From assembly GCA_016281495.1 (NCBI GenBank), contig JAEEIU010000012.1:124001-188000 (forward strand): a stretch of 64,000 nt of DNA, given 5' to 3'. A model generated the notes under the pieces. That model saw nothing but the letters and a program-made list of their open reading frames with translations, made no database searches and had not been told where the DNA came from. Numbering within the stretch: the stretch's first letter is position 1; each line of letters begins with the position of its first letter. The DNA comes from Treponema sp. Lineage in GTDB: Bacteria; Spirochaetota; Spirochaetia; Treponematales; Treponemataceae. Positions 2,345 through 37,221 of this stretch are shown piece by piece. Position numbers and translations under genes: made by a program.

Positions 2345-2400
2345 GACATATGATATATTGATATTAAAAAAATAACACCATAATAGCCATTTGTCAAGTT
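2345..2400 (-). promoter_or_regulatory. Promoter of the vapBC-like operon
   Basis: Minus strand: TTGACA at 2392-2397, 17-base spacer, then TATTTT. Related hexamers ATAGCT and GGCTAT flank the -35 region as an imperfect inverted repeat, a plausible antitoxin operator. Confidence 0.45.
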
Positions 2401-2538
2401 TATAGCTATTTTATGATTGTACCCAACTCTCCCAACTTCCCAGTATCTTTTCCACAAATTTACAAATAGTGAGTCTAACTCTGTATTACCCCTAAAAATT
2501 CCATGATACTATTGAAAAAGAGTAGCACTGGAGGTTCT

Positions 2539-4602
2539 ATGAAAATCATTCGTAAATTAGCATTTCTTTTTGTTTTTACTTTTTGTATGGGCTCGACCTT
2601 TGCACAAAATGTAAAGCCCTATAAGGTTGATTTGAACCGGATGCCGGCTGTTAATGGTGAGAAAACTGTCTCCTATAACAAAACGACTAACACTTTTACC
2701 ATTAAAAAAGATTATCTCGATCAAGCAGGACTTAATATCTGGCTTGGACAAGATATTTCAGCATACAATATTATAAGAGTGAAATACAAGGCTCTTGGTG
2801 ATGCAGGATTTTGTTTGTTCACAGATTACGAAAATGATAATCTTGATGATTATGATAATCCCTGGTTTGACAGAAACACCTACTGCCCTTCATATCTTAC
2901 CGAAATGGTAATCCCTCTAAAAAAGGGAATGAGAAAGCTGAACAGTATAGGATTTTTCTCTATGAATAGCGTAAAGAATGAGAAGTTTGTTATCGAAAGT
3001 GTAACGCTTGAGAAAGTTTCAAATCCTATAAAAACAGATATCTGGGCTAGTAATGAAGCTCCTGTAATAGACACTGCCACAAAAGTAACAATGAACGAAA
3101 AAATTACAGCCTGGGATTATGTTCCGCAGCTTGGTGTAGGTTATCATTATCAACAATTACATGCGAATGACCTGTCGATGGATTATGGATTGGATGTCTA
3201 CCTGGTATGGGATTATCCAAAGCCATCAAAGGAAGGAATAAAATTCATTAAAGAAAAAGGTTTTTCAATTGTCCGCTTGCAGACCACTCCCGGTGCATAC
3301 ATGCTGGATGAAAAGTATACTATCGATCCGAGATACTTAAAAGAACTTAAACAGTGTGTAGACTGGTTAATAGAAGATGGTTTGTATGTTATCATTGCAG
3401 GTCCAAGAGACGATCACCTTCAAGATCATTTTTGGCAGGAAAAAGTTGGCAAGGATGTTCACTATGCCTGTTATAATGTAAGTGAAAAAGATAAGAAACA
3501 GTCAAAAGAGTTTCTTAAAGCTGTCTGGCTGCAATATGCACAGGCCTTTAATAATTCCTATGACGAGCATCTTATTTTTGAAACGATGGATGAACCCGCC
3601 GCTATTTTTCATGAGCACGACTGGAATCCAGACGATAATTGTGCAACATGTAAAAAGAATTTTGCAATTATTAATGAGTATAACCAGCTGATTGTTGATA
3701 CAATCCGTTCTACTGGAGGAAACAATTCCAACCGTTTTATTATGGTTGAGGGGCTTACTGGAAACCGATACTGGCTTCTTGCCCATAAGCTTTTTAAGCT
3801 TCCAAAAGATAAGGCTAAAAACAGGATTATACCGGCAGTACATAACTATCCAATGCCGTTTGGTAGAACTATATATACCGAAGGCATAAAGAAATTCTTT
3901 ATTACAGACTGTTTTGAAGCTCTGGATAAGTATTTCTTCAACAAGAAGATTCCTGTTTATTTTACTGAAGTAGGACATCCTCGTACAATTCCTATTTTGG
4001 AGAGAATCAAATGTATAAAAGATTTTATGGCAGAGGCAAGAAAGCCAAACCGTTCCTGTGCTGTTTCCTTATTTGATAATTTTAACAGGTTTGAAGGTGG
4101 AACAGCTTACGACCATCACAATTCTAAGTGGATTGAAACAGAGTATGTTGATTCGATTTTGTATGCTGGTCAAGGCAAAGAATACCCGCTTAGCAATGAC
4201 TTTATAAAGAAGAATGAAGTTAAGGTCGAAAGCATAGTTGGTAATAATCTTTTGAGTAAACCATTTAATCCAAATAATTGGAAAGATTTTTATGAAATAA
4301 ATTCGAACATACTTGTTCGTTCCGTTCCTTCCAAATATAAACTTGAAATCCAAATAGAAAAAACAGGCTCCAAACCGGTACTGCAAGTCTCTTTTCATGA
4401 TTTTAAAAACAAATCCACTGATATTGCAGCAAGAGAAGATGTCAAAGTAACCGGAGCAGTAAAAGGTTTCTGCCTTGAGGTCAAGTCCGAGACAGTTACT
4501 ATAACGGTAAACGAAAAATTGGCTGCAGAATTTGAAAACGCAGATAAGCTTTACCTGGGTGGTCAGGACATCATCATCAAGTCGATGAAGGTTGTGGAGT
4601 AA
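2539..4602 (+). CDS. Secreted glycoside hydrolase family 5-like enzyme
   Basis: The 687-residue protein has a signal peptide (MKIIRKLAFLFVFTFCMGS, cleavage near TFAQ), an N-terminal beta-rich region to about residue 165 that may bind carbohydrate, a GH5-type catalytic barrel at about 190-500, and a C-terminal beta domain. The acid/base is Glu352 in FETMDEPA and the nucleophile Glu477 in YFTEVGHP. Family members normally read N-E-P at the first site; here it is Asp-Glu-Pro. I start at ATG 2539 because GGAGG lies just upstream and the signal peptide then begins properly; an in-frame ATG 36 bases earlier lacks this. Probable role: endo-acting cleavage of plant beta-glycan outside the cytoplasm. 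Confidence 0.82.
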   Translation: MKIIRKLAFLFVFTFCMGSTFAQNVKPYKVDLNRMPAVNGEKTVSYNKTTNTFTIKKDYLDQAGLNIWLGQDISAYNIIRVKYKALGDAGFCLFTDYENDNLDDYDNPWFDRNTYCPSYLTEMVIPLKKGMRKLNSIGFFSMNSVKNEKFVIESVTLEKVSNPIKTDIWASNEAPVIDTATKVTMNEKITAWDYVPQLGVGYHYQQLHANDLSMDYGLDVYLVWDYPKPSKEGIKFIKEKGFSIVRLQTTPGAYMLDEKYTIDPRYLKELKQCVDWLIEDGLYVIIAGPRDDHLQDHFWQEKVGKDVHYACYNVSEKDKKQSKEFLKAVWLQYAQAFNNSYDEHLIFETMDEPAAIFHEHDWNPDDNCATCKKNFAIINEYNQLIVDTIRSTGGNNSNRFIMVEGLTGNRYWLLAHKLFKLPKDKAKNRIIPAVHNYPMPFGRTIYTEGIKKFFITDCFEALDKYFFNKKIPVYFTEVGHPRTIPILERIKCIKDFMAEARKPNRSCAVSLFDNFNRFEGGTAYDHHNSKWIETEYVDSILYAGQGKEYPLSNDFIKKNEVKVESIVGNNLLSKPFNPNNWKDFYEINSNILVRSVPSKYKLEIQIEKTGSKPVLQVSFHDFKNKSTDIAAREDVKVTGAVKGFCLEVKSETVTITVNEKLAAEFENADKLYLGGQDIIIKSMKVVE

Positions 4603-6817: not shown

Positions 6818-7297
6818 ATGAAAAGACTATACGATGAAGCAGCAGATTCTAAAACTTATATAAAATGGGACCCGAAATTCAAAATCGGGATTCCCATCAT
6901 CGACGAACAGCACGAGCATCTTGTAAACCTGTGCAATGATTTTTATCAAAGCCTGTTGCAGAACAAGGATTCAGAGAGCTACCACAAGCTTATTAAGGAA
7001 ACCCTGGAAAAATGCCTGAATTACGCTGCAACACATTTCAAGGAAGAAGAGCGCCTTATGCAGGCCTCAAAATTCAGTGGATACAAGCAGCACAAGGCCT
7101 CCCACGATGAGTTCACGGGACAGTGCATGATTACATATTCAGCGATAGATTCCCTTACAGTTTCCGAGGCAATAAAATTCTCCCATTTCCTGTATGACTG
7201 GATCAATACCCACATTGCCCACGAAGACCGTCTTTATATTCCTACTCTAGTTGAATATTTAAAAACACAGCAGAAAACAAAGTCTCCCGAGGAATGA
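6818..7297 (+). CDS. Bacteriohemerythrin
   Basis: The 159-residue protein is a single hemerythrin domain. Diiron ligands are visible in order: IPIIDEQHEHLVNL (first His), ATHFKEEERLM (His with HxxxE spacing), YKQHKASHDEF (HxxxH) and INTHIAHEDRLY (His and Asp). The WDPKFKIGIPIIDEQH opening is typical of bacterial oxygen-binding members. It would bind O2 or serve as an oxygen or iron sensor or store in a microaerophilic or anaerobic cell. It stands alone after an AT-rich gap. Assignment is secure. Confidence 0.92.
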   Translation: MKRLYDEAADSKTYIKWDPKFKIGIPIIDEQHEHLVNLCNDFYQSLLQNKDSESYHKLIKETLEKCLNYAATHFKEEERLMQASKFSGYKQHKASHDEFTGQCMITYSAIDSLTVSEAIKFSHFLYDWINTHIAHEDRLYIPTLVEYLKTQQKTKSPEE

Positions 7298-8212: not shown

Positions 8213-8304
8213 TTCTTCATATAATCATACAATGCTTTGTCCTTTTATTGAAGTACTTTGTCATGTTATTCAATGTGTTTTTTTTGTTACCCTTACCTAA
8301 CTTA

Positions 8305-8361
8305 TTGACAAAAAAGTTGCATAATGCTAACATACTTTCCAAAGGTTGTTTGTGGCTAACC
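8305..8361 (+). promoter_or_regulatory. feo operon promoter with two degenerate metal-box palindromes
   Basis: TTGACA (8305-8310), 17-base spacer and TAACAT (8328-8333) form a promoter. AGTTGC-N6-CTAACA (8315-8332) overlaps the -10, and GGTTGT-N6-CTAACC (8344-8361) lies downstream of the start. Both are weak versions of the AGTTAG-N6-CTAACT box found elsewhere in the window. Confidence 0.55.
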
Positions 8362-8384
8362 TTTATGTGGCAAAAGGAGGATGT

Positions 8385-8594
8385 ATGCCTTTAAGCATGG
8401 TGTCTGACGGAGAGGAATTTTTAATTAAAAAGATTAACGGCAAGGAAGAGGTCCGGCGCTTTCTGGAAAACCTTGGTTTTGTGGCGGGCGCTCAAGTTTC
8501 ATTAGTTTCAAAAATCAGCGGAAATCTAATCGTCCAGATAAAGGACAGCCGCGTGGCAATCAGCCGGGAAATGGCACAGAAAATCATCGTGTAA
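8385..8594 (+). CDS. feoA: FeoA-like SH3-fold protein (first copy)
   Basis: A 69-residue FeoA-domain protein with the usual order: an N-terminal strand, a helix ending RRFLENLGFVAGAQVSLV, then IVQIKDSRVAISREMAQKI. In the family this small SH3-like protein assists ferrous iron transport through FeoB. The chosen ATG follows AAAGGAGG; an in-frame upstream ATG lacks a ribosome site. It is the first gene of the feo run and sits directly behind a promoter with metal-box palindromes. Three FeoA paralogues lie within 3.3 kb. Confidence 0.85.
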   Translation: MPLSMVSDGEEFLIKKINGKEEVRRFLENLGFVAGAQVSLVSKISGNLIVQIKDSRVAISREMAQKIIV

Positions 8595-8609
8595 TTTTTT
8601 TTAGCATTG

Positions 8610-8627
8610 GGTTAGCAATAACTAATC
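8610..8627 (+). promoter_or_regulatory. Metal-box palindrome upstream of second feoA
   Basis: GGTTAG-N6-CTAATC, a close variant of the AGTTAG-N6-CTAACT box, in the 64-base gap between the two feoA genes. It could regulate an internal promoter. Confidence 0.5.
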
Positions 8628-8658
8628 AAATCGGTACATTTTAAAGGAGACATAGAAT

Positions 8659-8877
8659 ATGACTTTAAGGGAAGTGAAAAAGGGACAAACCGTTAAGGTT
8701 GTAAAACTGAACGGTGAAGGTGCGGTAAAACGCCGCATCATGGACATGGGCATTACAAAGGGAACGGAAGTCTTTGTGCGCAAGGTTGCTCCGCTTGGCG
8801 ATCCAGTTGAAGTGACGGTACGCGGATATGAGCTTTCAGTTCGTAAGGCTGATGCGGAAATGGTGGAGGTAGAATAA
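8659..8877 (+). CDS. feoA: FeoA (second copy)
   Basis: A 72-residue canonical FeoA: GEGAVKRRIMDMGITKGTEV followed by VRKVAPLGDPVEVTVRGYEL, where the RIMDMGI and GDPVEV(T)VRGYELSLR-type segments are family signatures. It would act on the cytoplasmic side with the G-protein channel FeoB, whose gene starts two bases after its stop. AAAGGAGACA precedes the ATG. Assignment is secure. Confidence 0.93.
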   Translation: MTLREVKKGQTVKVVKLNGEGAVKRRIMDMGITKGTEVFVRKVAPLGDPVEVTVRGYELSVRKADAEMVEVE

Positions 8878-8878
8878 A

Positions 8879-11236
8879 ATGGTTAAAATTGCTTTGGCAG
8901 GAAACCCGAACTCGGGAAAGACCACACTCTTCAATGCGCTCACAGGTTCAAATCAGTTTGTTGGAAACTGGCCTGGAGTAACGGTAGAAAAAAAAGAGGG
9001 AAAACTCAAGGGCTCTAATGGCGAAGTCGTCATAATGGACTTGCCCGGAATCTATTCCCTTTCTCCATATACGCTGGAAGAAGTTGTATCACGCGACTAT
9101 CTTGTAAAGGAAAGGCCTGATGCAATCCTGAACATCGTAGACGGAACCAACCTTGAACGAAACCTTTACCTTACAACCCAGCTGGCAGAACTCGGAATCC
9201 CGATGGTCATTGCCGTAAACATGATGGATGTGGTAAAGAAGAATGGTGACAAGATTCACATTCAGGAAATGGAACAGGAACTCGGTTGCCCTGTAGTGGA
9301 AATCTCCGCGCTCAAGGGAACTGGCTGTACCGAAGCTGCTGAACTTGCCGTATCCAAAGCCAACGAAAAGAAGCCGATGATGTACAAGCATCGTTTTGAA
9401 GGCTGTGTTGAACACGCTCTTGCACACATAGAGGAAGCCGTCGTACATGACCTTCCGGAAGAACAGCACAGATGGTATTCCGTAAAGCTTTTTGAACGCG
9501 ATGAAAAAGTCATAAAGGCACTTGGAGTACCTGAAGACAAGCTCAAGCACATAGAGTCAGACATCAAGTCATGCGAAAAGGAACTCGATGACGATTCAGA
9601 ATCAATCATCACTGCAGAACGCTACAAGTACATTGAGTCAATCATCAAAAAATGCGTGACAAAAAAGAACCGCACAAAGCTTACGACTTCGGACAAGATT
9701 GACCGTGTTGTAACAAACCGCTGGCTTGCACTTCCTATTTTTGCCCTTGTGATGTGGCTTGTTTATTACGTTGCAATGGTGACTGTTGGTGCATCTGCCA
9801 CTGACTGGGCCAATGACGGACTGTTTGGTGACGGCTATCATCTGTTTGGAATCGGTTCCGGTGCTTATGAAGAGGCTGCCGAAGAATACGGTGATACTGC
9901 CGCAATCCTTGAGGCATACGAAAACGGCGACGATACATATATTGTTGTTGACGATGAAACCATGGAAGCTTCTGATCCGATTTTGATTACCCCAGAGGTT
10001 CTGGAAGAAGCAAATGCCATGGCAGAAAAATATGGTGAAGAGGGACCTGATCCTGCCGACTATGGTGTCTGGGTTCCGGGTATTCCCGCCCTTATTGAAA
10101 GTGGACTTGATGCAATCGGCTGTGCTGACTGGCTCAAAGGCCTGATTCTTGACGGTATTGTTGCCGGTGTAGGTGCGGTGCTTGGCTTTGTTCCGCAGAT
10201 GCTCGTTCTGTTCCTGTTCCTTGCATTCCTTGAAGCCTGTGGTTACATGGCACGCATTGCATTCATACTGGACCGCATATTCAGGCGCTTTGGCCTTTCC
10301 GGAAAATCTTTCATTCCGGTACTTATCGGAACTGGATGTGGAATCCCTGGTATCATGGCATGCCGCACGATAGAAAACGAACGCGACCGGCGAATGACAA
10401 TCATGACCACGACATTCATTCCTTGTGGTGCAAAGATTCCGTTCATCGGTTTGGTTGTCGGTGCCATCTTTGGTGGAAACCCATGGCTTGCCGCAAGCTG
10501 CTACTTCATCGGTATGGCCGCAATCATCTGTTCAGGCATCATCCTTAAAAAGACAAAACCGTTCATGGGCGAGGTTGCTCCGTTTGTCATGGAACTTCCT
10601 TCTTATCACTGGCCTACACTTGGCAATGTACTCCGCTCAATGTGGGAACGCGGATGGTCATTCATCAAAAAGGCAGGAACAATCATCCTTCTTTCTACTA
10701 TCGTAATCTGGTTCCTTTCTTTCTTTGGCTGGGTGGACGGATCGTTTGGAATGCTGGAAGAAGATCAGATGGATTCAAGCATTCTTGCAAAAATCGGCGG
10801 TGCAATCGCATGGATCTTTACTCCAATCGGTTGGGGAAACTGGCAGGCAGCAGTCGCTTCGATTACAGGTCTTGTTGCAAAGGAAAACATCGTTGGTACC
10901 ATGGGCATCCTTTACGGTGGAGAATCAACATGGGCAAATATGGCGGCGGCATTCACAAGTCCGGCTGGCCTTTCATTCCTGATTTTCAACCTGCTGTGTG
11001 CTCCATGTTTCGCTGCAATCGGTGCAATCAAGCGTGAAATGAACAGCCACAAGTGGACATGGGCCGCAATCGGATGGCAGTGTGGACTTGCTTACGTCGT
11101 ATCGTTTGTAGTCTACCAGTTCGGCTGCATGTTCGGTGGAGCAGGAAACATTGTTGGATTCGTCATCGCAGTTGTAGTTCTTCTTGCATTTATCTGGGCA
11201 TTGTTCAGGAAACCAAAAAAGGCCATTTCAAAATAA
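8879..11236 (+). CDS. feoB: Ferrous iron transporter FeoB (first copy, with long acidic loop)
   Basis: The 785-residue protein has the FeoB plan: an N-terminal GTPase (G1 GNPNSGKT at residues 8-15, G3 DLPG near 54-57, G4 NMMD near 115), a helical linker, and a membrane part with two gate regions. These include FRRFGLSGKSFIPVLIGTGC and CTIENERDRRMTIM-like sequence, plus conserved LVAKENIVGTMG. It imports Fe2+ across the inner membrane. Unusual is an extracytoplasmic loop of about 105 residues (roughly 305-412) rich in Asp and Glu, absent from the second FeoB here. It is coupled to feoA upstream and followed by a Cys-rich small protein. Confidence 0.95.
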   Translation: MVKIALAGNPNSGKTTLFNALTGSNQFVGNWPGVTVEKKEGKLKGSNGEVVIMDLPGIYSLSPYTLEEVVSRDYLVKERPDAILNIVDGTNLERNLYLTTQLAELGIPMVIAVNMMDVVKKNGDKIHIQEMEQELGCPVVEISALKGTGCTEAAELAVSKANEKKPMMYKHRFEGCVEHALAHIEEAVVHDLPEEQHRWYSVKLFERDEKVIKALGVPEDKLKHIESDIKSCEKELDDDSESIITAERYKYIESIIKKCVTKKNRTKLTTSDKIDRVVTNRWLALPIFALVMWLVYYVAMVTVGASATDWANDGLFGDGYHLFGIGSGAYEEAAEEYGDTAAILEAYENGDDTYIVVDDETMEASDPILITPEVLEEANAMAEKYGEEGPDPADYGVWVPGIPALIESGLDAIGCADWLKGLILDGIVAGVGAVLGFVPQMLVLFLFLAFLEACGYMARIAFILDRIFRRFGLSGKSFIPVLIGTGCGIPGIMACRTIENERDRRMTIMTTTFIPCGAKIPFIGLVVGAIFGGNPWLAASCYFIGMAAIICSGIILKKTKPFMGEVAPFVMELPSYHWPTLGNVLRSMWERGWSFIKKAGTIILLSTIVIWFLSFFGWVDGSFGMLEEDQMDSSILAKIGGAIAWIFTPIGWGNWQAAVASITGLVAKENIVGTMGILYGGESTWANMAAAFTSPAGLSFLIFNLLCAPCFAAIGAIKREMNSHKWTWAAIGWQCGLAYVVSFVVYQFGCMFGGAGNIVGFVIAVVVLLAFIWALFRKPKKAISK

Positions 11237-11263
11237 AACGCATTAATAAGGAGGCATAATCTT

Positions 11264-11458
11264 ATGGGAACAGTTATTGTATCTTTACTTCTTCTTGCAC
11301 TTGTTTCTGGGGTTATCGCCTCCATCATCAAAGACAAACGCAAAGGCCGTCATCCTTCATGTGGCGGTCACTGCGGTTCATGCGGCCATGTGTGTTCAGC
11401 ATACCAAAAGACAATGGCCATTCTAGAAAATCAAGGGATTCAAAAACAATCGAGGTAA
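11264..11458 (+). CDS. FeoB-associated Cys-rich membrane protein
   Basis: A 64-residue protein with one N-terminal transmembrane helix (IVSLLLLALVSGVIASII) followed by KDKRKGRHPSCGGHCGSCGH, a cluster of four to five Cys typical of the FeoB-associated Cys-rich family. It may bind metal near the FeoB channel. AAGGAGG precedes the ATG. Its TAA overlaps the next possible start by one base, so the following feoA is translationally coupled. Confidence 0.88.
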   Translation: MGTVIVSLLLLALVSGVIASIIKDKRKGRHPSCGGHCGSCGHVCSAYQKTMAILENQGIQKQSR

Positions 11459-11460
11459 TG

Positions 11461-11700
11461 ATGAAACTATCCGAACTCTCAAAAGATAAGAGCGGGTTGA
11501 TTGCTGGCATAAATGGTGACGCCCGTTTTATCAGTAGAATTACATCCATAGGACTAACTCCGGGATGCCGCCTTACGGTAATCAAAAATGAAAAGAGACG
11601 GCCCATTCTGGTATATTCACGCGACACGATGATTGCGTTAAACCGAAATGAATGCGATTTGATTGATGTTGAAGAAATCGCACAGGGAGAAGCAGTATGA
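11461..11700 (+). CDS. feoA: FeoA-like protein (third copy)
   Basis: A 79-residue FeoA domain: LIAGINGDARFISRITSIGL then TPGCRLTVIKNEKRRPILVY and a final DTMIALNRNECDLIDVE. GAGG lies 5 bases before this ATG; an adjacent ATG at 11458 overlaps the stop of the Cys-rich gene and is an alternative. The end overlaps the second feoB by four bases (ATGA). It probably serves that FeoB specifically. It is more divergent than the second FeoA. Confidence 0.85.
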   Translation: MKLSELSKDKSGLIAGINGDARFISRITSIGLTPGCRLTVIKNEKRRPILVYSRDTMIALNRNECDLIDVEEIAQGEAV

Positions 11701-13721
11701 CGGACAAAAACGAAACTGTAATTGCATTGCTTGGTCAGCCTAACTCAGGAAAGTCAACTTTGTTCAATGCACTTACTGGATTAAAGCAGCATGTGGGAAA
11801 CTGGCCCGGTAAAACAGTAGAAAAAAAAGAAGGTACTTTTGAATACAACGGCAAAAAATATATGGTGGCGGACTTACCCGGAACCTACAGCCTGTCTGCC
11901 AACTCAGACGAAGAAATAATAACACGCGATTACATTGCATCAGGAAAGACCGATGTGGTTTGTATTCTTGCCGACAGTTCCCAGCTTGAACGAAGCCTCT
12001 ACATGCTTGCAGATTATGCGGGAATCACAGTTCCTACATTCCTTTTGCTGAACATGAGCGATGTAGCCTCCGAACAGGGCAAACAGATTGATGCAGCTGA
12101 CATTCAGAAAAAGCTGGGCATTCCGGTGGTTCTCTTTTCCGCACAGGACAGGAAAAATTACGGTGGATTCTATGAAGCACTTGAAAACGCCGTTAACAAC
12201 AAGACGGTTTTGGATTCCTCTTCAATTGAATCAAAATACGAAACGATTCCCGCATACAAGAAACTAAAGCCATTTGTAAAAGACAATGTAATACCCGGAT
12301 ATTCTTCTGCATGGCTCACTGTAAAGGCAATGGAAGGAGATGCTCCCGTAGTTGCAAAAATCAAGGCATCGCTTGATGATTCCAAACGTGCTGAATTTGA
12401 AAAGATTGTCAGCGGTATAAACAAGGGAGTACTTCAAAGCGGTGAGAAAAAATTCGAATGGATAGATTCACTTCTAAAAGATACGGTCAAGTCAGAAAAA
12501 AAGACACGCCAGCTTGGAAAGTTTGACCGCATGATAACACACCGCATCTGGGGAAAGCCTGTCGTAATACTTACGGTTCTATTTGGACTCATTGCTTCCT
12601 TCATTCCGGCGCTTCCGTTCATGGGACTCGGTTCAGCAGTAGGTGCCCTTGCAACCCCAATCAACAATGCACTTGTTTCAATAAACTGTCCCGCATTCGT
12701 AATTGCAATCATCTGTGACGTTGTAATCAACTCTCTGGGATTCATCCTCAAGATGCTGGGCTTTGTCTTTGGTGTGACCCTTGTGTTCGGCCTACTGGAA
12801 GAAGTTGGTGTCATGGCCCGAATCTCCTATGTCTTTGACAACACGATGTCCAAACTCGGATTACAGGGAAAGTCAATCATGCCGTTCCTTGTAAGCTTTG
12901 GATGTACGATGGGTGGTGCCGCCGGTGCACGTGTCATCGACAACTGGGGACAAAAAGTTCTGACAATTGCGCTTGCATGGGCAATTCCGTGTGGTGCGGC
13001 TTGGGCTGTAGTTCCAATGCTTTCAAGCGTGTGGTTTGGTGCGGGTGCCCCACTGGTAATCGTTGCAGTTCTTGTCGTGATGGTACTGCACATGTGGATT
13101 ACATCAAAAGTGTTCGGACGTTCACTTGTCAAAAAAGAAGACCGTTGCGGCATGATCATGGAACTTCCTCCGTATCACAAGCCTAGATGGGGAAGCCTTT
13201 TCCGCTACGTTCTTGGACGCACAAAGGACACTTTCTTCCGCGTACTCAAGGTTGTGCTTCTTGTTTCATTCATCTTCTGGCTGCTTACCTTTACCACAAC
13301 AGGTTCCATGGACAATTCAATCATGTACAAGATTGGAAAATTCATTGAGCCGGTTACAAAGATTTTCGGTCTTGGATGGAAAACCTTCATGGCATTCATC
13401 GCTTCTTCTGTCGGTAAGGAAGGTGCCATTGGTGTCTTGAGCACAATCTTCACAGACCACAGCATGCTTACTGTCGGCGGTACGGTTGCAGGTGGTGCAG
13501 TTGCAAACATCAACGAGCTTCTTGTCGCCAATGTTGCCAAACCGGAAGCACTTGCGTTCATCTTTGCAATCACGTTCAACATGCCTTGTCTTGTGGCTCT
13601 TGCCGCTACATATCAGGAAACGCACTCTGCAAAATGGACGGCGATTATTGCGGGATATTACACGATAGGTTCGCTCATTCTTGCATGTGCCGCATATCAC
13701 ATCGGACTTTTGATTTGGTAA
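11697..13721 (+). CDS. feoB: Ferrous iron transporter FeoB (second copy)
   Basis: A 674-residue FeoB paralogue. The GTPase domain shows GQPNSGKST near residues 14-22, [11 protein letters not shown] and LNMSD. The membrane domain carries [20 protein letters not shown] and [13 protein letters not shown], equivalents of the two gate regions. It lacks the acidic loop of the first FeoB and is about 110 residues shorter. The ATG overlaps feoA3 by four bases. Two FeoB with different gate residues suggest different affinity or metal preference (for example Fe2+ versus Mn2+); this is inference. Confidence 0.93.
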
Positions 13722-22464: not shown

Positions 22465-22531
22465 AAAAAAGCAGATTTTTAGAAGTGTAAAATCCTCATG
22501 TACAATAAAATGCTTTCAAGTGAGGTACAAT

Positions 22532-23338
22532 ATGAAATTCATGTATTTTTTTGACTGTAAGTTAAAACGCTTTACGATGTACGGAAAAAGGATGCTGCAT
22601 CCGTCTCAGACTGGCATATATCAGGATGGAATCAGCTGTATTAAAGAAGATGATGTAAACCTATGGTTTTACACGAAGAATGGCGTGACCATAGCGATTG
22701 ATGCTGGGCATCTTGTTTTTAAGGGAATTGAAAAAGAGTTTGATAAAATCGGGATAGATCCGCTTGCAATAAAAACTGTTTTGCTGACACATTCTGATGT
22801 GGACCATGTTGGTGGGGTGGATCGGACCTGCAAGAATTATCTGTATCCTAATGCCCAGGTGTATATCGGTAGGGGTGAAGAAAATTATTTTGACGGTCAT
22901 GTCTGCCGCATGATAAAGATGGGAATTCCGCTGATGAACCCGGCAAGGCTTCGCGATGGTTATAAAACTATGAAAGACGGTGAGGTTTTGAATATTGATG
23001 GAATAAAGATTGAAGTTGTTGAAGTGATGGGTCACACGGTTGGACATGTCTGCTATATCATTGATGACAAGATTCTGTTCAGCGGAGACTGTCTTGCAGT
23101 AAACGAAAACGGCGGCTACAGCCTCTTTGAATTTTTTACACAGAACCCGACCCTGAATAAAAAGTCACTTGTAAGGCTGAGTGATAAAATTACAGGTTCT
23201 GGCGTTAAAGTCGTGTGCACAGGCCACAGCGGAATAAGAACTGACATGTCAAAGCTTTTCGCCCATATCGACGAATCGGCTGTGAGCAAGCGTGGAAAGC
23301 CATTTGATCCTACTGCGCCTAAGAGTATCAGGAAATAA
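22532..23338 (+). CDS. Metallo-beta-lactamase-fold hydrolase
   Basis: A 268-residue protein with the zinc-binding MBL motif LTHSDVDHVGGVD (HxxDxDHxGG form), a later His in VVEVMGHTVGHVCYI, Asp in ILFSGDCLAVN and a terminal His in VVCTGHSGIRTD. These give the dinuclear metal site. Substrate cannot be told; relatives include glyoxalase II-like and lactonase-like enzymes. ATG 22532 follows GTGAGG. It ends at the terminator-like hairpin shared with the candidate small RNA. Confidence 0.85.
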   Translation: MKFMYFFDCKLKRFTMYGKRMLHPSQTGIYQDGISCIKEDDVNLWFYTKNGVTIAIDAGHLVFKGIEKEFDKIGIDPLAIKTVLLTHSDVDHVGGVDRTCKNYLYPNAQVYIGRGEENYFDGHVCRMIKMGIPLMNPARLRDGYKTMKDGEVLNIDGIKIEVVEVMGHTVGHVCYIIDDKILFSGDCLAVNENGGYSLFEFFTQNPTLNKKSLVRLSDKITGSGVKVVCTGHSGIRTDMSKLFAHIDESAVSKRGKPFDPTAPKSIRK

Positions 23339-23451
23339 AAAAAAATAAGCAAGGGCATTCTTTGTTGGTTCGTGGCTATCGAAGGAGAGTAATGCCCTTG
23401 CTTAATGTGCAAAATTGGATTTCTTGTTAGAGGAACTAACTTAACCCCGAT
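23337..23451 (-). ncRNA. Candidate metal-regulated small RNA
   Basis: On the minus strand a sigma-70-like promoter with an overlapping AGTTAG-N6-CTAACT palindrome drives a region of about 115 bases without a convincing ORF. It ends in a perfect 13-bp stem (AAGCAAGGGCATT, 23391-23403, with its complement at 23347-23359) followed by a run of nine T. The 31-base terminator loop contains CTCTCCTT, complementary to Shine-Dalgarno sequence. An upstream small hairpin (GTTAG, loop TTCCT, CTAAC; 23426-23440) exposes a second such tract. This layout resembles Fur-controlled sparing RNAs. The alternative is that the hairpin is only the terminator of the response-regulator operon. Confidence 0.55.
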
Positions 23452-23484
23452 AGTTAGCTTATACTAACTAGAATAAAATGTCAA
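23452..23484 (-). promoter_or_regulatory. Promoter with metal box for the candidate small RNA
   Basis: Minus strand TTGACA (23479-23484), 17-base spacer, TAAGCT (23456-23461). The perfect palindrome AGTTAG-CTTATA-CTAACT (23452-23469) covers the -10, so a bound repressor would block initiation. Confidence 0.6.
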
Positions 23485-23491
23485 GACATAA

Positions 23492-24229
23492 TTAAGATAT
23501 TTTTTTATATAACATGCTTGGCCTTCCGCCGGTACCATAATTTATGTCTTCTGCAATCACTTTGACATTCACAAGATAATTCATGTAATTCCTAACAGTA
23601 ACTATTGAGATACCCAGCGATTCAGATATCATGTCCGTGCTGCTCCATCCGCTGTTGTCCTCAAAATATGTAATTATGTTTTCCAGAGTTTTGCGCTGTA
23701 TTCCCTTGGGAAGGTTTTTCATGATGGTTGAACCACTTAAAGTTGCTGCCTGAGTTTTACTGCCGCTTACAGAAGACAAGACTCCTGCCGAAGAATTCAT
23801 CATAAGGCTGTCAACGTCACTTTGAGTCATCGTTGAGTTTTCCTTCAGCAGATTTTTTTTGCATATAAATTTTTCAAGTGAAATGCAGAGGCGTTCAAAC
23901 GTAAACGGTTTTATAAGATAGTCATGCACACCAAGATGAACTGTTTCTTCGATTGTTGTAGTGTCATTTGCTGCCGTCACCATTATTACTTCGACATCAG
24001 TTTTTTCTTCGCGTATTTTTTTAAGGGTTTCCCTTCCGTCCATCACTGGCATAAAGACATCCAGAAGAATAAGATCAACCTTGTTGTCCAAAAGAAAATC
24101 AAGCACTTCTTTTCCGTTCCTGCAGATCCCCGCAATTTCAAAACAACCCGCCTTTTCAACATACTGGCTGTTAATCATTGCAACCATGGGATCATCTTCT
24201 GCAATCAAAACCCTGTAATTCTCATTCAT
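23492..24229 (-). CDS. Response regulator, citrate/dicarboxylate (DcuR/CitB) type
   Basis: A 245-residue regulator. The receiver domain (about 1-125) has acidic pocket EDD in VLIAEDDPMVAM, phospho-acceptor Asp in LILLDVFMPVMDG, and Lys in YLIKPFTFERL. A linker rich in Ser and Thr follows, then a C-terminal helix-turn-helix (GISIVTVRNYMNYLVNVKVI and TGGRPSMLYK) as in DcuR/DpiA relatives. ATG 24229 overlaps the kinase stop by four bases. The pair probably senses an external carboxylate, but no transporter gene is adjacent. Confidence 0.87.
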   Translation of the reverse strand: MNENYRVLIAEDDPMVAMINSQYVEKAGCFEIAGICRNGKEVLDFLLDNKVDLILLDVFMPVMDGRETLKKIREEKTDVEVIMVTAANDTTTIEETVHLGVHDYLIKPFTFERLCISLEKFICKKNLLKENSTMTQSDVDSLMMNSSAGVLSSVSGSKTQAATLSGSTIMKNLPKGIQRKTLENIITYFEDNSGWSSTDMISESLGISIVTVRNYMNYLVNVKVIAEDINYGTGGRPSMLYKKIS

Positions 24230-25473
24230 CTGTTCAATTCCACCATAAAGCATGTTCCGCATCCGTCTTCCGTCTCAAAGCTTATGTTTCCACCCATGCT
24301 TTGTACAAGCTGTTTTGTATGAAAAAGCCCTGTGCCGTGACCTTCTCCCTTTGTTGTTACTCCAAGCTCAAAAATCTTGTCCCGTATTTCCAGAGGGATT
24401 CCGCCGCCAGTATCCTGCACGGTAATCAAGAGGCTTCCCGGTTTTGTGTAAACGCCAAGAGTCAGTTCCTTTACCGCATCAAAATTCCTTTGCATCCTGT
24501 TCATTTCATCAAGGGCATTGTCTATAAGATTTCCTGTAATAGTAACAAGAGCTTCGGATGGAATGTCAATGTCTTCGTTATGAAAGCAAATGCCTTCTTT
24601 TAGAATAAAGCGCACGTCACATTCCGAGGCACGGGCAATCTTACCGACGATTAAAGCTGCAAACGAAGGGTTTTCAATCGAATTCATTACCCTGCTGATC
24701 GTTTCCTTTTGAATCATCGAAATGTTCTGGATATATGAAGCAGCCTTGTCATATTCTCCAATCTGAATTAGCCCCAGTATGACGTGAAGCTTGTTGGTAA
24801 AATCGTGATTGTTTGCCCTCATGGAATCAACGAGTATTTTTGTTCCTTCAAAATCTTCCGTAAACGAAATGAATTCTTTTTTAATTCGATTAAAAAGAAC
24901 TCCGGAAACAGCAAGCTCAACTACAATAGCAATAATCGTAACAAACAGAAATAACAAGACAATCCTGAGAGTCACCTGCATCATGGAAGATTTGAGCATG
25001 ATTGTCATTATGAATCCATCGTATTTTCCGCTTGCATCATAAACCGCAGAATATGTCCTTCTCTGTGGTCCCGAAGGCCCTATGTCATCTTCCGTGTAAA
25101 AACCGTTGTTATGAATTGAAAAATCAGGAATCGTGCCGTCGTATTGGGTGCCGACCAATTCGTGGTGAGTGTGATATATTCGCCTTCCATTAACATCAAC
25201 AATTGAAATTATGTCTACGCCAGATAATTCAAGTACAATATCATCCATGAATTCCTTTAATTGTTCTCTGTCATATTCACTTGTAAAACCATAAAGCCTG
25301 GTTATGAGTCTTGAAGTGTTCATAAGGTTGTCATTGAATTCCCTTTCATTGGCCCTTATGGTGATGAACATTCCGCCTGCACTCATAAAAACAGTTACGA
25401 ACAGGATGAGGATGAGCTGCGTGCGTTTTATCTGTTTGCGTATTGCATTCAGGCTGCCAAGATTTCCTTTCAT
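24226..25473 (-). CDS. Sensor histidine kinase, CitA/DcuS type
   Basis: A 415-residue kinase: transmembrane helix near residues 18-38, an extracytoplasmic sensor of about 120 residues (Cache-like) containing VDVNGRRIYHTH, a second helix near 165-190, a SpoOB-type dimerisation segment with His in RANNHDFTNKLHVILGL, and an HATPase domain with N box NLIDNALDEM, G1 VQDTGGGIP and G2 GEGHGTGLFHTKQL. It autophosphorylates and passes phosphate to the overlapping response regulator. The ligand is not shown. Confidence 0.88.
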   Translation of the reverse strand: MKGNLGSLNAIRKQIKRTQLILILFVTVFMSAGGMFITIRANEREFNDNLMNTSRLITRLYGFTSEYDREQLKEFMDDIVLELSGVDIISIVDVNGRRIYHTHHELVGTQYDGTIPDFSIHNNGFYTEDDIGPSGPQRRTYSAVYDASGKYDGFIMTIMLKSSMMQVTLRIVLLFLFVTIIAIVVELAVSGVLFNRIKKEFISFTEDFEGTKILVDSMRANNHDFTNKLHVILGLIQIGEYDKAASYIQNISMIQKETISRVMNSIENPSFAALIVGKIARASECDVRFILKEGICFHNEDIDIPSEALVTITGNLIDNALDEMNRMQRNFDAVKELTLGVYTKPGSLLITVQDTGGGIPLEIRDKIFELGVTTKGEGHGTGLFHTKQLVQSMGGNISFETEDGCGTCFMVELNR

Positions 25474-28363: not shown

Positions 28364-28783
28364 CTATTTAATTGCGGATTGTGCCCATGTCTTGCACAGC
28401 TCAACATCCGCTTCTTCTGGGGCAAGGTGAACCATAAGGGCATCCACCGCACTTACTGCACCCGCATTGTTCAGGCGCTCAGTCCAGTCACGAAGCCACT
28501 GTCCGTCACCCCAATCGTATGAACCAAAGATTCCAAGCTTTTTGCCGTTAAGTGAACCTTCTATTTTTGCATAAAATTCTTCCATCGTGTCTTCCAGTAC
28601 CTCATCGCCCATTGCAGGACTTCCAAGAAGAATCACATCACATGAAAGAACCTCATCTTTATCTGCACTGTCAGCAGTACCAAACACAACTTCCGCACCA
28701 GAAGCTTTGACCGTCTCATTAATCACATTTGCCATGGCCTCAGTGTTGCCTGTAGTACTCGCATATATAACCGCAACTTTCAT
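28364..28783 (-). CDS. Flavodoxin
   Basis: A 139-residue short-chain flavodoxin: FMN phosphate loop VIYASTTGNTEAMAN near residue 5, the 60s loop LLGSPAMGDEVLED, and the 90s loop GSYDWGDGQWLRDW. It carries electrons in place of ferredoxin and in many bacteria is induced when iron is scarce. ATG 28783 begins the canonical N-terminal strand and has AGAGG upstream. The promoter region carries a perfect AGTTAG-N6-CTAACT box, consistent with iron-dependent repression. Confidence 0.93.
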   Translation of the reverse strand: MKVAVIYASTTGNTEAMANVINETVKASGAEVVFGTADSADKDEVLSCDVILLGSPAMGDEVLEDTMEEFYAKIEGSLNGKKLGIFGSYDWGDGQWLRDWTERLNNAGAVSAVDALMVHLAPEEADVELCKTWAQSAIK

Positions 28784-28816
28784 TAAAAAACCTCTTTGAT
28801 ATAAGGATAGATTACT

Positions 28817-28917
28817 AGTTAGCAAAGGCTAACTACAATTCTGAATATACTGTAGTTTTAAAAGTTAGTCAATACTAACTTGAATAAAAACAGAAAATAA
28901 GTTAGATTTAGCTAACT
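28817..28917. promoter_or_regulatory. Divergent control region with three perfect metal boxes
   Basis: AGTTAG-N6-CTAACT occurs three times without mismatch: 28817-28834 (in the flavodoxin promoter), 28863-28880, and 28900-28917. The last overlaps the -10 (TAGATT, 28903-28908) of the ABC operon promoter, whose -35 is TTGAAT (28880-28885). Confidence 0.7.
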
Positions 28918-28935: not shown

Positions 28936-30753
28936 ATGATCTCATCAGTTGCACCGTATATCGGAAAATACAAAAAATATACGGTAATTGCATCTTTCCT
29001 TACAACACTTGGCATTGTGGCCAGCGTTGTCCCTTATTTCTTCTTGTACCAGCTGATTGTTCCGCTTACACAGCACCAGCTGCCTGATTTTAAATTCATC
29101 GCAATACGTGTTGCCCTGATTTTTGTCTGTGAGGCAGTTTATGCAATAGCGTACAGCCGTGGCCTTGCTTTCTCCCACATCAGTGCTTACAACACCCTCA
29201 AGAACATTAGGATTTCCCTAAAGGACAGGCTCGAAAGACAGCCGCTTGGAAACATTAAGGAACTCGGTACCGGCCAGATTAAGCGCGTATTTACCGACGA
29301 CATCGATCAGATTGAGCTTCTGCTTGCACATGCCATACCGGAAGGAATTGCAAACCTGCTTGTTCCGTGCCTTGTGTTTGTCGCAATGTTTGTTGTTGAC
29401 TGGAGGCTTGCACTTTTGACTCTGGCTGTAATTCCAATCGGCATTTTTGCAATGAGCATGATGATGAAATCCGGCATGGCAAAGATGGGAGCCTTTTATG
29501 AGTCTGCAAAAAAAATGAACAATACAATCATAGAATACGTTAACGGAATGGAAGCAATAAAAGTCTTCAACAAGGATGGAGATTCCTTCAGGCGTTTTGG
29601 AGAAGCCGTCAAAGCTTATCGTGATTTTACTCTAGACTGGTACAGGGTATGCTGGCCTTGGATGGCAGTCTACAACAGTACGATTCCATGTCTTGCGCTT
29701 TTTACCCTTCCGATAGGAGGCATTCTTGTCTTAAATGGAACGATTGCATTAAGCCAGCTCATTCTTGTACTGTGCATGTCGTTTGCTGTTGGTCCTGCAA
29801 TTCTTCGTGCCCTTAGTTTTGGCGGAAAGATTCCCCAGTTGGATTATAAAATTGCAGAGCTTGAAAAGATGATGAATGGTGATCCTGTCAAAGCCGGCAA
29901 TTCAAATTTCAAGGGGAAAAATTATGATGTTGAATTCAAGAACGTAAGGTTCTCGTATAAAAAAGATTTAGCACACGGATTGGAAACATCTGCGGAAAAC
30001 GACACTTCTAACAAAAATAACAAGGATTTTGCGTTAGCAAAATCGAATCCGTGTGACAATGAAACACTACATAATATTAATTTAACTTTGAAACAGGGCA
30101 CAACTACCGCACTCATCGGTGAATCGGGAAGCGGCAAATCCACTCTTGCAAAACTTCTTGTTCACTTCTACGATCTTGATTCCGGTGCAATCAGCATAGG
30201 CGGACAGGACATTACAGACATGTCCATCGAGGCATTGAACAATCAGGTTTCGTATGTCGCACAGGAACAGTTTTTGTTCAACACAACATTAAACGAAAAC
30301 ATCCTGATAGGCCGACCGAATGCAACACGGGAAGAAGTTCTGGATGCGGCACACCGCGCACAGTGTGATGAATTCCTGGAACGTTTCCCCAAGGGAATCG
30401 ACACTATGGCAGGAGACAGCGGCAAACAGCTTTCCGGCGGAGAACGCCAGCGCATATCCCTTGCCCGTGCCATCCTCAAGAATGCACCTATTATCGTTTT
30501 GGACGAAGCGACTGCATTCATTGACCCGGAAAATGAAGAAAAGATGAATGCAGCAATCAGTGAAATCGTCAGGGACAAGACCGTACTAGTAATTGCACAT
30601 AGGCTTTCTTCAATAAAAAAAGCAGACAAAATATGCGTGCTCAAGGACGGCAATGTGATTGCAGAAGGAAAACATTCAACCTTGAACAAAGAATCAGAAG
30701 AATACAAAAAACTGTGGAAGGCTTCTAAAGCTGCGGCAGAATGGAAGATTTAA
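28936..30753 (+). CDS. ABC transporter, fused permease/ATPase half-transporter (IrtA/YbtP-like)
   Basis: A 605-residue half-transporter: six-helix membrane domain to about residue 310, then a nucleotide-binding domain with Walker A LIGESGSGKSTLAKLL, signature QLSGGERQRISLAR and Walker B IIVLDEATAF. Between the first NBD strand (VRFSYKK) and the next (LHNINLTL) lies an extra hydrophilic stretch of about 37 residues rich in Asn, Lys and Asp that may descend from a repeat insertion. Paired with the next ABC gene and preceded by three metal boxes, it may import siderophore-bound iron, although fused half-transporters more often export. Confidence 0.88.
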   Translation: MISSVAPYIGKYKKYTVIASFLTTLGIVASVVPYFFLYQLIVPLTQHQLPDFKFIAIRVALIFVCEAVYAIAYSRGLAFSHISAYNTLKNIRISLKDRLERQPLGNIKELGTGQIKRVFTDDIDQIELLLAHAIPEGIANLLVPCLVFVAMFVVDWRLALLTLAVIPIGIFAMSMMMKSGMAKMGAFYESAKKMNNTIIEYVNGMEAIKVFNKDGDSFRRFGEAVKAYRDFTLDWYRVCWPWMAVYNSTIPCLALFTLPIGGILVLNGTIALSQLILVLCMSFAVGPAILRALSFGGKIPQLDYKIAELEKMMNGDPVKAGNSNFKGKNYDVEFKNVRFSYKKDLAHGLETSAENDTSNKNNKDFALAKSNPCDNETLHNINLTLKQGTTTALIGESGSGKSTLAKLLVHFYDLDSGAISIGGQDITDMSIEALNNQVSYVAQEQFLFNTTLNENILIGRPNATREEVLDAAHRAQCDEFLERFPKGIDTMAGDSGKQLSGGERQRISLARAILKNAPIIVLDEATAFIDPENEEKMNAAISEIVRDKTVLVIAHRLSSIKKADKICVLKDGNVIAEGKHSTLNKESEEYKKLWKASKAAAEWKI

Positions 30754-32642: not shown

Positions 32643-33971
<1,329 letters not shown>

Positions 33972-35251: not shown

Positions 35252-36571
35252 TCAGCGGAAGAGGATGTTGTTGACAACTCCCTCAAGATATTCCTCACGA
35301 CCGGAGCCTGGATCTGACGGCTTTTTCATTTCTGCGGCACGTGCGGCAAGCTCTTCCAAAGTTGTCTGCTTGTCGCGAATCTTCTTGCCAATTCCACTTT
35401 CGTAGCTTGAATACTTTTCTTTTATGAAACCGTCGATTCTACCATCTTCTATGATTTCTGCAGCCTTGATGAGACCGAGTGCAAAAGTATCCATACCCAT
35501 GATGTAAGCATGGAACATATCCTCATAAGTATTTGACGGGCGGCGGTTCTTTGAGTCAAAGTTGAATCCACCTGTAAGACCACCAGCCTTGAGAACTTCG
35601 TACATTGCAAGGGTTGCATCGTAAACATTCCACGGGAAGTTGTCTGTGTCCCATCCAAGAATTGGATTACCCTGGTTGGCATCAACAGATCCAAGCATTC
35701 CATTTATGCGGCTGATGCAAAGCTCGTGCTGGAAAGTGTGGTTTGCAAGAGAGGCATGATTTGCTTCAATGTTCATCTTGAAGTCTTTGTCAAGTCCATA
35801 CTGGCGGAGGAATCCGATTGCAGTTGCGGCATCAAAATCATACTGATGGCTCATCGGTTCCTTTGGCTTTGGTTCGATATAGAAATCACCCTTGAAGCCG
35901 ATTGAACGTCCATAATCAACTGCCATGTGCATGAGGTTTGCAATGTTTTCCTGTTCAAGCTTTACGTCTGTGTTAAGAAGTGTTTCATAACCTTCGCGTC
36001 CACCCCAGAAAACATAACCGCGTCCACCAAGCTTTACTGTAATCTCGAGTGCCTTTTTAACCTGAGCCGCAGCAAAACAGTAAACATCAGCAGAGTTAGT
36101 TGAACCAGCGCCGTTCATAAAACGTGGGTTACCGAACATGTTTGCCGTTCCCCATAGACACTTAATGTCCGTACCTTTTGTCTTTTCCAGAATGTAATCA
36201 GAAATCTCGTCCAGGCGTTTGTTTGTTACATTGATGTCATTCGGATCTTCAGGTACAAGGTCAACGTCATGCCAGCAGTAATACTTGATTCCGAGCTTTT
36301 TCATAAACTCGATTCCGGCATCTACCTTTGCCTTTGCATGCTCCATGGTTCCAGGAGTCTGACCGAAAGACTTGTCGGCAGTTCCTGTACCGAACATGTC
36401 CACTCCATTTGCCCCAAGGTTGTGCCACCATGCCATTGCAAACGGAAGATGTTCAGACATCTTTTTTCCCATGACGATTGCTTCAGGATTGTAATACTTG
36501 AATGCCCATGGGTTTTTGCTGTCTTTACCTTCAAACTTTATTTGAGGTATGTTCTTGAAAAATTCACTCAT
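35252..36571 (-). CDS. xylA: Xylose isomerase
   Basis: The 439-residue protein is a full-length class II xylose isomerase converting D-xylose to D-xylulose with Mg2+, Mn2+ or Co2+. Visible are the opening [20 protein letters not shown], the catalytic-His segment [27 protein letters not shown], the metal ligands of [14 protein letters not shown] and [17 protein letters not shown], and [15 protein letters not shown] precedes the ATG. No xylulokinase gene is adjacent. Two AGTTAG-N6-CTAACT-type boxes lie upstream. Confidence 0.97.
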
Positions 36572-36606
36572 TACTGAGCCTCCTTATAAATTTTTCTTAT
36601 GGTACT

Positions 36607-36647
36607 AGTTAGCATAGACTAACTATAAGAATTAGTATATACTAATA
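36607..36647 (-). promoter_or_regulatory. Two metal-box palindromes upstream of xylA
   Basis: A perfect AGTTAG-CATAGA-CTAACT (36607-36624) and a variant AATTAG-TATATA-CTAATA (36630-36647) containing the 16-base palindrome ATTAGTATATACTAAT. On the minus strand TATAGT between them could be a -10. Confidence 0.55.
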
Positions 36648-36711
36648 ACATGAAAAAGAAAATAGGCTTTGAGCAAATTTTCCAGGATTTTACTTGCAAC
36701 ACGGAGTTTTT

Positions 36712-37221
36712 ATGAAAGAATATGTCTGGCTTTTTCCGATTATCTTTATGTTTCACGATATGGAAGAAATAATCGGGTTCAAATTCTTTTTGCGCCAGAA
36801 CGAAACAGAACTTAAAAAACGCTTTCCGTTCATCCTGAGACGCTACAAGGATTTTTCCACCGAAGGATTTGCCCTTGCCGTTTATGAAGAACTCATTTTG
36901 TGCATTTTGATTTCTACGCTGTCCTTTTTCCTGGACCGCAACTTTTTATGGTACATCTGGCTGGGTGCATTCCTTGGCTGTGACCTGCACTTTTTTGTGC
37001 ATTTGATTCAGGTTGGCATTTACCGCCGCTATATCCCGGCATGCATCACGAGTTTGATTTGCCTTCCGATAAATACGCTGATCATCTGCAAGTGTCTTTT
37101 GTGCATAGAGGATTCCGTCCTGTTTGCGGGATTGTTCATGGCTCTTGGTGCGATTCTTGTTTTTGTAAATATTTTTATCGCGCAAAAGCTGATGGGATGG
37201 TTTACAAGGAAAACTAATTGA
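36712..37221 (+). CDS. HXXEE-domain membrane protein
   Basis: A 169-residue membrane protein with the family motif HDMEE in PIIFMFHDMEEIIGFKFF, a second Glu pair in ALAVYEELILC, and a His-rich helix CDLHFFVHLIQVG. About five hydrophobic segments. The HXXEE family has no proven function; the conserved His/Glu suggest metal binding in the membrane. ATG 36712 follows GGAG. A 21-codon frame (36650-36715) precedes and overlaps its start. Confidence 0.78.
   Translation: MKEYVWLFPIIFMFHDMEEIIGFKFFLRQNETELKKRFPFILRRYKDFSTEGFALAVYEELILCILISTLSFFLDRNFLWYIWLGAFLGCDLHFFVHLIQVGIYRRYIPACITSLICLPINTLIICKCLLCIEDSVLFAGLFMALGAILVFVNIFIAQKLMGWFTRKTN

Follow-up and report, generated by a model that had tools for sequence, protein, structure and literature searches.

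A 64-kb stretch of Treponema DNA, analysed here in full and referred to below as the window, contains a locus for a predicted RNA of about 115 nt that we lean towards regarding as a trans-acting, DtxR-controlled, metal-sparing RNA with a family of counterparts in Treponema. The covariation of the terminator stem and the operator shared by the family members constitute comparative evidence for a family of metal-repressed small RNAs in spirochaetes. If confirmed, the family would mean that metal sparing by RNA had been invented independently once more, with a DtxR-type protein instead of Fur as the switch, and it would help to explain how Treponema of the gut and rumen cope with iron scarcity. 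Comparison among genomes shows that the promoter, box, stem and loop are conserved; transcription, the identity of the repressor, the metal, target pairing and iron sparing are what we infer from sequence.

In the mechanism that we propose, a DtxR-family repressor bound to the box over the −10 would keep the RNA off while Fe2+ (or Mn2+) is plentiful; a second box usually lies just downstream of the first. When metal becomes scarce, the RNA would be transcribed together with the Feo transporters and flavodoxin, and the covarying terminator stem would display the single-stranded loop UCUCCUUNNNNAGCCAC. This loop could pair with Shine-Dalgarno and start regions (AAGGAGA, with GUGGCU upstream) and thereby reduce the translation of metal-costly proteins. 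In about half of the carriers, in which the terminator stands directly before a DUF3793 or enolase gene, that gene would have to be expressed by read-through.

Promoter and predicted transcript in the window

The promoter lies on the minus strand, where the −35 element TTGACA (23479..23484) is followed, after a 17-nt spacer, by the −10 element TAAGCT (23456..23461). A perfect AGTTAG-N6-CTAACT box (operator 1, AGTTAG-TATAAG-CTAACT; 23452..23469, minus strand) overlaps the −10. The earlier note had described this arrangement, and its coordinates could be read directly in the sequence. The geometry is repeated in relatives, in which the −10 at the matching position is TATATT, TATAGT or TATGCT. 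A second, degenerate operator (operator 2, AGTTAG-TTCCT-CTAAC; 23426..23441, minus strand) doubles as a 5′ hairpin, the loop of which is not conserved; its counterpart in relatives is GTTAG-N6-CTAAC at an offset of 36-46.

Transcription is predicted to start at about 23451 on the minus strand, and the predicted small RNA (23337..23451) would end in a terminator hairpin (23346..23404, minus strand) and a tract of nine T (23337..23345, minus strand). The arms of the hairpin, 23404-23391 and 23359-23346, form a stem of 13 bp, or 14 if the outer T-A is counted. Within it lies the apical loop TCTCCTT-CGAT-AGCCAC (23372..23388, minus strand; canonical form TCTCCTT-ACAC-AGCCAC), which is the proposed pairing seed and, in the majority of family members, is predicted to remain largely single-stranded. 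The folding energy of the predicted 115-nt RNA is −30.2 kcal/mol with a z score of −3.7, and none of 200 shuffled sequences folded as well. As initially described, the region amounts to some 115 bases lacking a convincing ORF and ends in the perfect 13-bp stem and the nine T. Its sole open frame, a TTG frame at 23412-23116, crosses the terminator and runs antisense to the neighbouring gene. A small peptide product was rejected because the frames disagree among members (VFSLHSHK versus GILLTQPQ) and because one-base loop insertions in relatives (L151, L157 and L158) destroy any frame.

Upstream of the locus are genes for a response regulator (23492-24262) and its partner kinase (24226-25473), as assigned by Pfam, and downstream is a metallo-hydrolase gene (22520-23338, plus strand) that is convergent with the small RNA. 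Only a few bases separate the end of the response-regulator gene (23492) from the small-RNA −35, and the −10 TAAGCT is weak, as might be expected if the hairpin did no more than terminate the sensor kinase/response regulator operon and the box were inert or marked a dead promoter. We regard this explanation as highly improbable, because the promoter, box and loop recur near other genes in other species and because the near relative G009 has promoter elements, box and loop identical to those of the window copy. Judged by comparison with relatives, a small RNA is very probably made from the window locus.

An RNA family in Treponema

The starting point for defining the family was the resemblance of the terminator loops at two other box-driven loci to the window loop. 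The loop pattern was searched over 200 genomes of the genus, and covariance models were then applied. The RNA was found in 23 genomes in total (the window copy and 22 others); a recognisable copy is present in about 12% of the genus, as estimated by a search in which few candidates are scored in each genome and divergent copies will be overlooked. Members were picked by loop and stem, the promoter not being used in the selection, and yet TTGAC[A/T] and one or more boxes precede the RNA in all 23; in 19 of them, the offset of box 1 from the start of the −35 is exactly 16. None of the loop-pattern matches without a terminator had TTGAC or a box upstream.

In an alignment of 13 sequences, pairing of the stem was 100% and 9 of its 13 pairs were changed on both sides; in 19 sequences, pairing was 98.4% and 10 of 13 pairs had double changes. 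None of 500 shuffles equalled this result and slid versions of the stem reached 38-63%. The structure was derived from the same sequences, which inflates the pairing percentage but leaves the count of double changes unaffected. Conservation in related Treponema, which had been proposed as a check, was borne out for the promoter, the terminator loop and the terminator.

The terminator loop, UCUCCUUACACAGCCAC, is nearly invariant across the family, and that of the window departs from the canonical form chiefly in four bases (CGAT for ACAC) between UCUCCUU and AGCCAC. The layout of the family is a 5′ hairpin, usually on operator 2, followed by the terminator hairpin, the large loop of which is mostly open. 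The 5′ hairpin is common (mean z of −1.8 in 22 members, with z below −1 in 17) and is retained at one locus (L117) at which operator 2 has been lost. Two C/U-rich loops had originally been suggested to pair with ribosome-binding sites. The terminator loop is indeed conserved and anti-Shine-Dalgarno, whereas the TTCCT loop is the spacer of operator 2, varies freely among members and was discarded as a second seed.

Among 84,980 species, the loop TATTCTCCTTACACAGCCA matched 12 records, all of them Treponema or Spirochaetaceae assemblies and several of them rumen genomes, judged by isolate names. No convincing copy was found outside the genus, a second covariance model having produced one weak match, probably due to chance, in 167 other genera. 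The family appears to be confined to one genus of gut/rumen Treponema. There was no Rfam match at the gathering score and a permissive Rfam scan gave chance matches only, on which grounds a known RNA family was rejected.

The operator box, its regulon and the likely repressor

The AGTTAG-N6-CTAACT box is a genuine regulatory signal. Exact copies number five in the whole 3.2-Mb genome, all within the window, with none for the reversed control, and in the genus (36 genomes searched) 54 exact boxes were found as compared with one for the reversed control. With one mismatch allowed in the pattern, the signal drowns in background.

All five exact boxes of the genome fall inside a 13-kb part of the window, and their neighbours, which include flavodoxin, ABC transporter and xylose-isomerase-like genes, make up a compact metal regulon. 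Three of the boxes (28817..28917) lie between the flavodoxin gene (28364-28825, minus strand) and the ABC transporter gene (28936-30753, plus strand), and another (36607..36624) is positioned between the xylose-isomerase-like gene (35252-36571, minus strand) and a gene for an HXXEE protein (36694-37221, plus strand). Weaker boxes, at 8285-8332 and 8610, are found at the window Feo cluster (8384-13721), which is composed of two feoB and several feoA-like genes. Across relatives, the box-adjacent genes are DUF3793 (8), ABC transporter (7), flavodoxin (4) and feoA (4) and, more rarely, xylose isomerase (3) and phosphoglycerate mutase (2).

The regulon content suggests that the metal is Fe2+ or Mn2+. 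Iron is the candidate signal because feoA and flavodoxin genes carry boxes; manganese is also possible, since an Mntp (manganese exporter-like) gene and phosphoglycerate mutase adjoin boxes. The xylose-isomerase-like gene has a box at its promoter in three genomes (35252-36624 in the window; L055 and L059), and a metal cofactor is perhaps the reason for the presence of a sugar isomerase in a metal regulon. Phosphoglycerate mutase of the histidine-phosphatase type, which is metal-independent, is box-controlled in two genomes (L048 and L077), and the start of the metal-dependent enzyme's gene in G017 (L212, G017:C69:19758) is complementary to the small-RNA loop. A metal-saving swap of the two enzymes is possible.

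A search with PF01325 (DtxR N-terminal domain) identified one DtxR gene (G000:C29:111416) in the genome. The protein has both DtxR domains, and its closest solved relatives are MntR, DtxR and IdeR, the last being itself a member of the DtxR family. In another genome (G026, L088), the DtxR gene is divergent from feoA and boxes lie in between. The repressor of the small RNA is most likely of the DtxR type (TroR/IdeR/MntR-like), and the genome's DtxR protein is predicted to bind the AGTTAG-N6-CTAACT box. We are fairly confident that the small RNA is metal-repressed by a protein of this type.

In the part of the published account used here, TroR of Treponema denticola and T. pallidum is a DtxR-like repressor that depends on Mn/Fe, its operator is an 18-bp palindrome close to a sigma-70 promoter, and the TroR locus includes phosphoglycerate mutase (gpm) (PMC2628430). 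The system in the window would resemble it in the DtxR-type repressor, the palindromic operator at the promoter, the operators being likened by description only, and the link to phosphoglycerate mutase. It differs in that TroR controls a metal transporter operon, for which that part of the account notes no small RNA (PMC2628430).

Among metal-responsive RNAs of other bacteria, FsrA of Bacillus subtilis is metal-repressed and directs a C-rich single-stranded region at Shine-Dalgarno sequences (PMC9410917). The Treponema RNA is likewise predicted to be metal-repressed, with a loop against the Shine-Dalgarno sequence; however, FsrA is Fur-controlled and works with FbpABC, whereas the Treponema RNA has a likely DtxR-type box and carries its seed inside the terminator loop, and no sequence relation between the two was detected. 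The likeness to RyhB and FsrA that had been noticed at the outset holds in logic, but not in family membership, no Rfam match having been found, nor in the regulator, which is likely of the DtxR type. IsrR of Staphylococcus is iron-repressed, has two operator boxes at its promoter and pairs through C-rich unpaired regions with the Shine-Dalgarno regions of iron-enzyme genes (PMC9410917). The Treponema promoter usually also has two operator boxes, but IsrR is Fur-controlled, is 174 nt long and has three C-rich regions outside the terminator, and no homology was seen. MrsI of Mycobacterium, for which control by IdeR is predicted (PMC9410917), is similar in its predicted DtxR-family control but belongs to an unrelated bacterium, and the Treponema RNA has no Rfam match. 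In the openly accessible papers that were searched, no metal-responsive small RNA of spirochaetes was found, in keeping with the earlier note's remark that such RNAs are little described in this group.

Predicted targets and downstream genes

The core of the loop complements the Shine-Dalgarno sequence AAGGAGA, and the flanking GUGGCU would lend specificity. When the complement of the canonical loop was searched for in 17 carriers, the matches, apart from the RNA genes themselves, included an exact one of 16 nt in G188, where it covers the ribosome-binding site of a gene of the ATC-hydrolase family; it is kept in the relative G212 (duplexes of −32.6 and −29.5, respectively). The same search pointed to rnfB, iorA and metal-dependent phosphoglycerate mutase in relatives with the canonical loop. 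Because the counts of the canonical complement, RNA genes excluded, were overall not above those of the reversed control, the target evidence rests on the location of the matches and their recurrence.

The product of rnfB is a multi-cluster Fe-S protein. In the 30 genomes in which rnfB was checked, pairing of −20 to −32 kcal/mol with its start region was seen in G017, G012, G198, G212 and G188. Since a value of −20 was attained by about 1% of the genes sampled in G001, five of about 17 carriers is above expectation, with the caveat that two of the five genomes served to choose the gene and that G188 and G212 are close relatives. Most carriers, the window genome included, are without strong rnfB pairing.

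A ranking of 335 sampled genes of G001 placed dtxR 5th, iorB 6th and pflA 14th, the names iorB and pflA being those that we presume from the sequences. Among 726 sampled genes of the window genome, rnfB ranks 184 and dtxR 318, and the metal-related candidate that scores best, at rank 2, is the start region of a hemerythrin-like gene in the window (6818-7297), a single unconfirmed match. Fe-S-like genes were not favoured in the own-genome sample (8 genes), for which 56 of 60 shuffled loops were as good, and were weakly enriched in the G001 sample (6 genes; 1 of 60). A search of the window genome for a long complementary target with up to three mismatches gave 15 matches, one being the RNA gene itself, versus 23 for the control; one of the 15 had a sensible start codon, that of a lipoprotein-like gene. 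As regards the proposal that iron-using enzymes are targets, rnfB, iorA, pflA and metal-dependent phosphoglycerate mutase are candidates in relatives, with none convincing in the window genome. For rnfB and iorA, the pairing in relatives suggests iron-sparing targets.

One could envision that the RNA is a protein sponge or scaffold (for an RNA chaperone, for example, or for DUF3793 itself) and does not pair with mRNA. Conservation of the loop spans about 20 nt, which is beyond the need of a bare anti-Shine-Dalgarno seed, and many genomes have DUF3793 next to the RNA or under control of a box. We think this scenario very unlikely, because the change in the window loop falls precisely between the two conserved blocks and because loops match start regions in relatives, the G198 loop, with one extra base, giving a better fit to the rnfB of G198 than the canonical loop (−20.1 versus −15.4).

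The neighbours of the copies are varied and include a convergent metallo-hydrolase, DUF3793, enolase and RNase H-like genes. In 12 of the 23 members, the T tract is followed after about 12-35 nt by the start of a DUF3793 (10) or enolase (2) gene, so that these genes must be read through; DUF3793 was assigned by Pfam, and the two enolases are presumed to be such because they are nearly identical to the gene at 32652 in the window. The other 11 copies are free-standing or adjoin unrelated genes. An alternative is that the RNA is mainly a cis-acting leader or attenuator. Transcription from the metal-controlled promoter would then halt at the hairpin unless a signal, such as a ribosome on the loop or a protein that depends on iron, let it continue into the DUF3793 or enolase gene, and the window copy would be a relic after gene loss. 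The spacing in the 12 members leaves no room for another promoter, the window loop is more diverged, and a further DUF3793 leader (L084) has box, terminator and gene but a different loop, all of which would fit this alternative. Nevertheless, the 11 copies without DUF3793 or enolase still keep the promoter, box, covarying stem and UCUCCUU/AGCCAC-type loop, the downstream genes are mutually unrelated, and the folds examined contained no alternative antiterminator structure. We therefore consider the cis-acting leader rather unlikely, although it is the strongest rival, and prefer a trans-acting RNA because the remaining copies are free-standing or near unrelated genes. Action in trans on Shine-Dalgarno regions is, with some reserve, the reading that we favour; that iron sparing is the main job of the RNA is a more tentative and somewhat doubtful proposition.

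The rank of the dtxR ribosome-binding site in G001 also raises the possibility of a dual RNA, the terminated form of which would spare iron in trans and lower its own repressor, while the read-through form would serve as the leader of DUF3793 or enolase, with DUF3793 perhaps a partner. We consider this distinctly unlikely.

DUF3793, a family of unassigned function, is the commonest box neighbour (L051, L057, L061, L070, L078, L079, L084 and L085), and its gene often stands directly after the small RNA; it is a candidate partner protein or iron-starvation protein. At L084 (about 2380-2540, minus strand), the DUF3793 leader has boxes and a terminator hairpin bearing a different loop, and it may be a diverged member or represent a second RNA family. 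In G001, an exact box lies 23 bases ahead of a ribosomal protein S4-like gene (L050).
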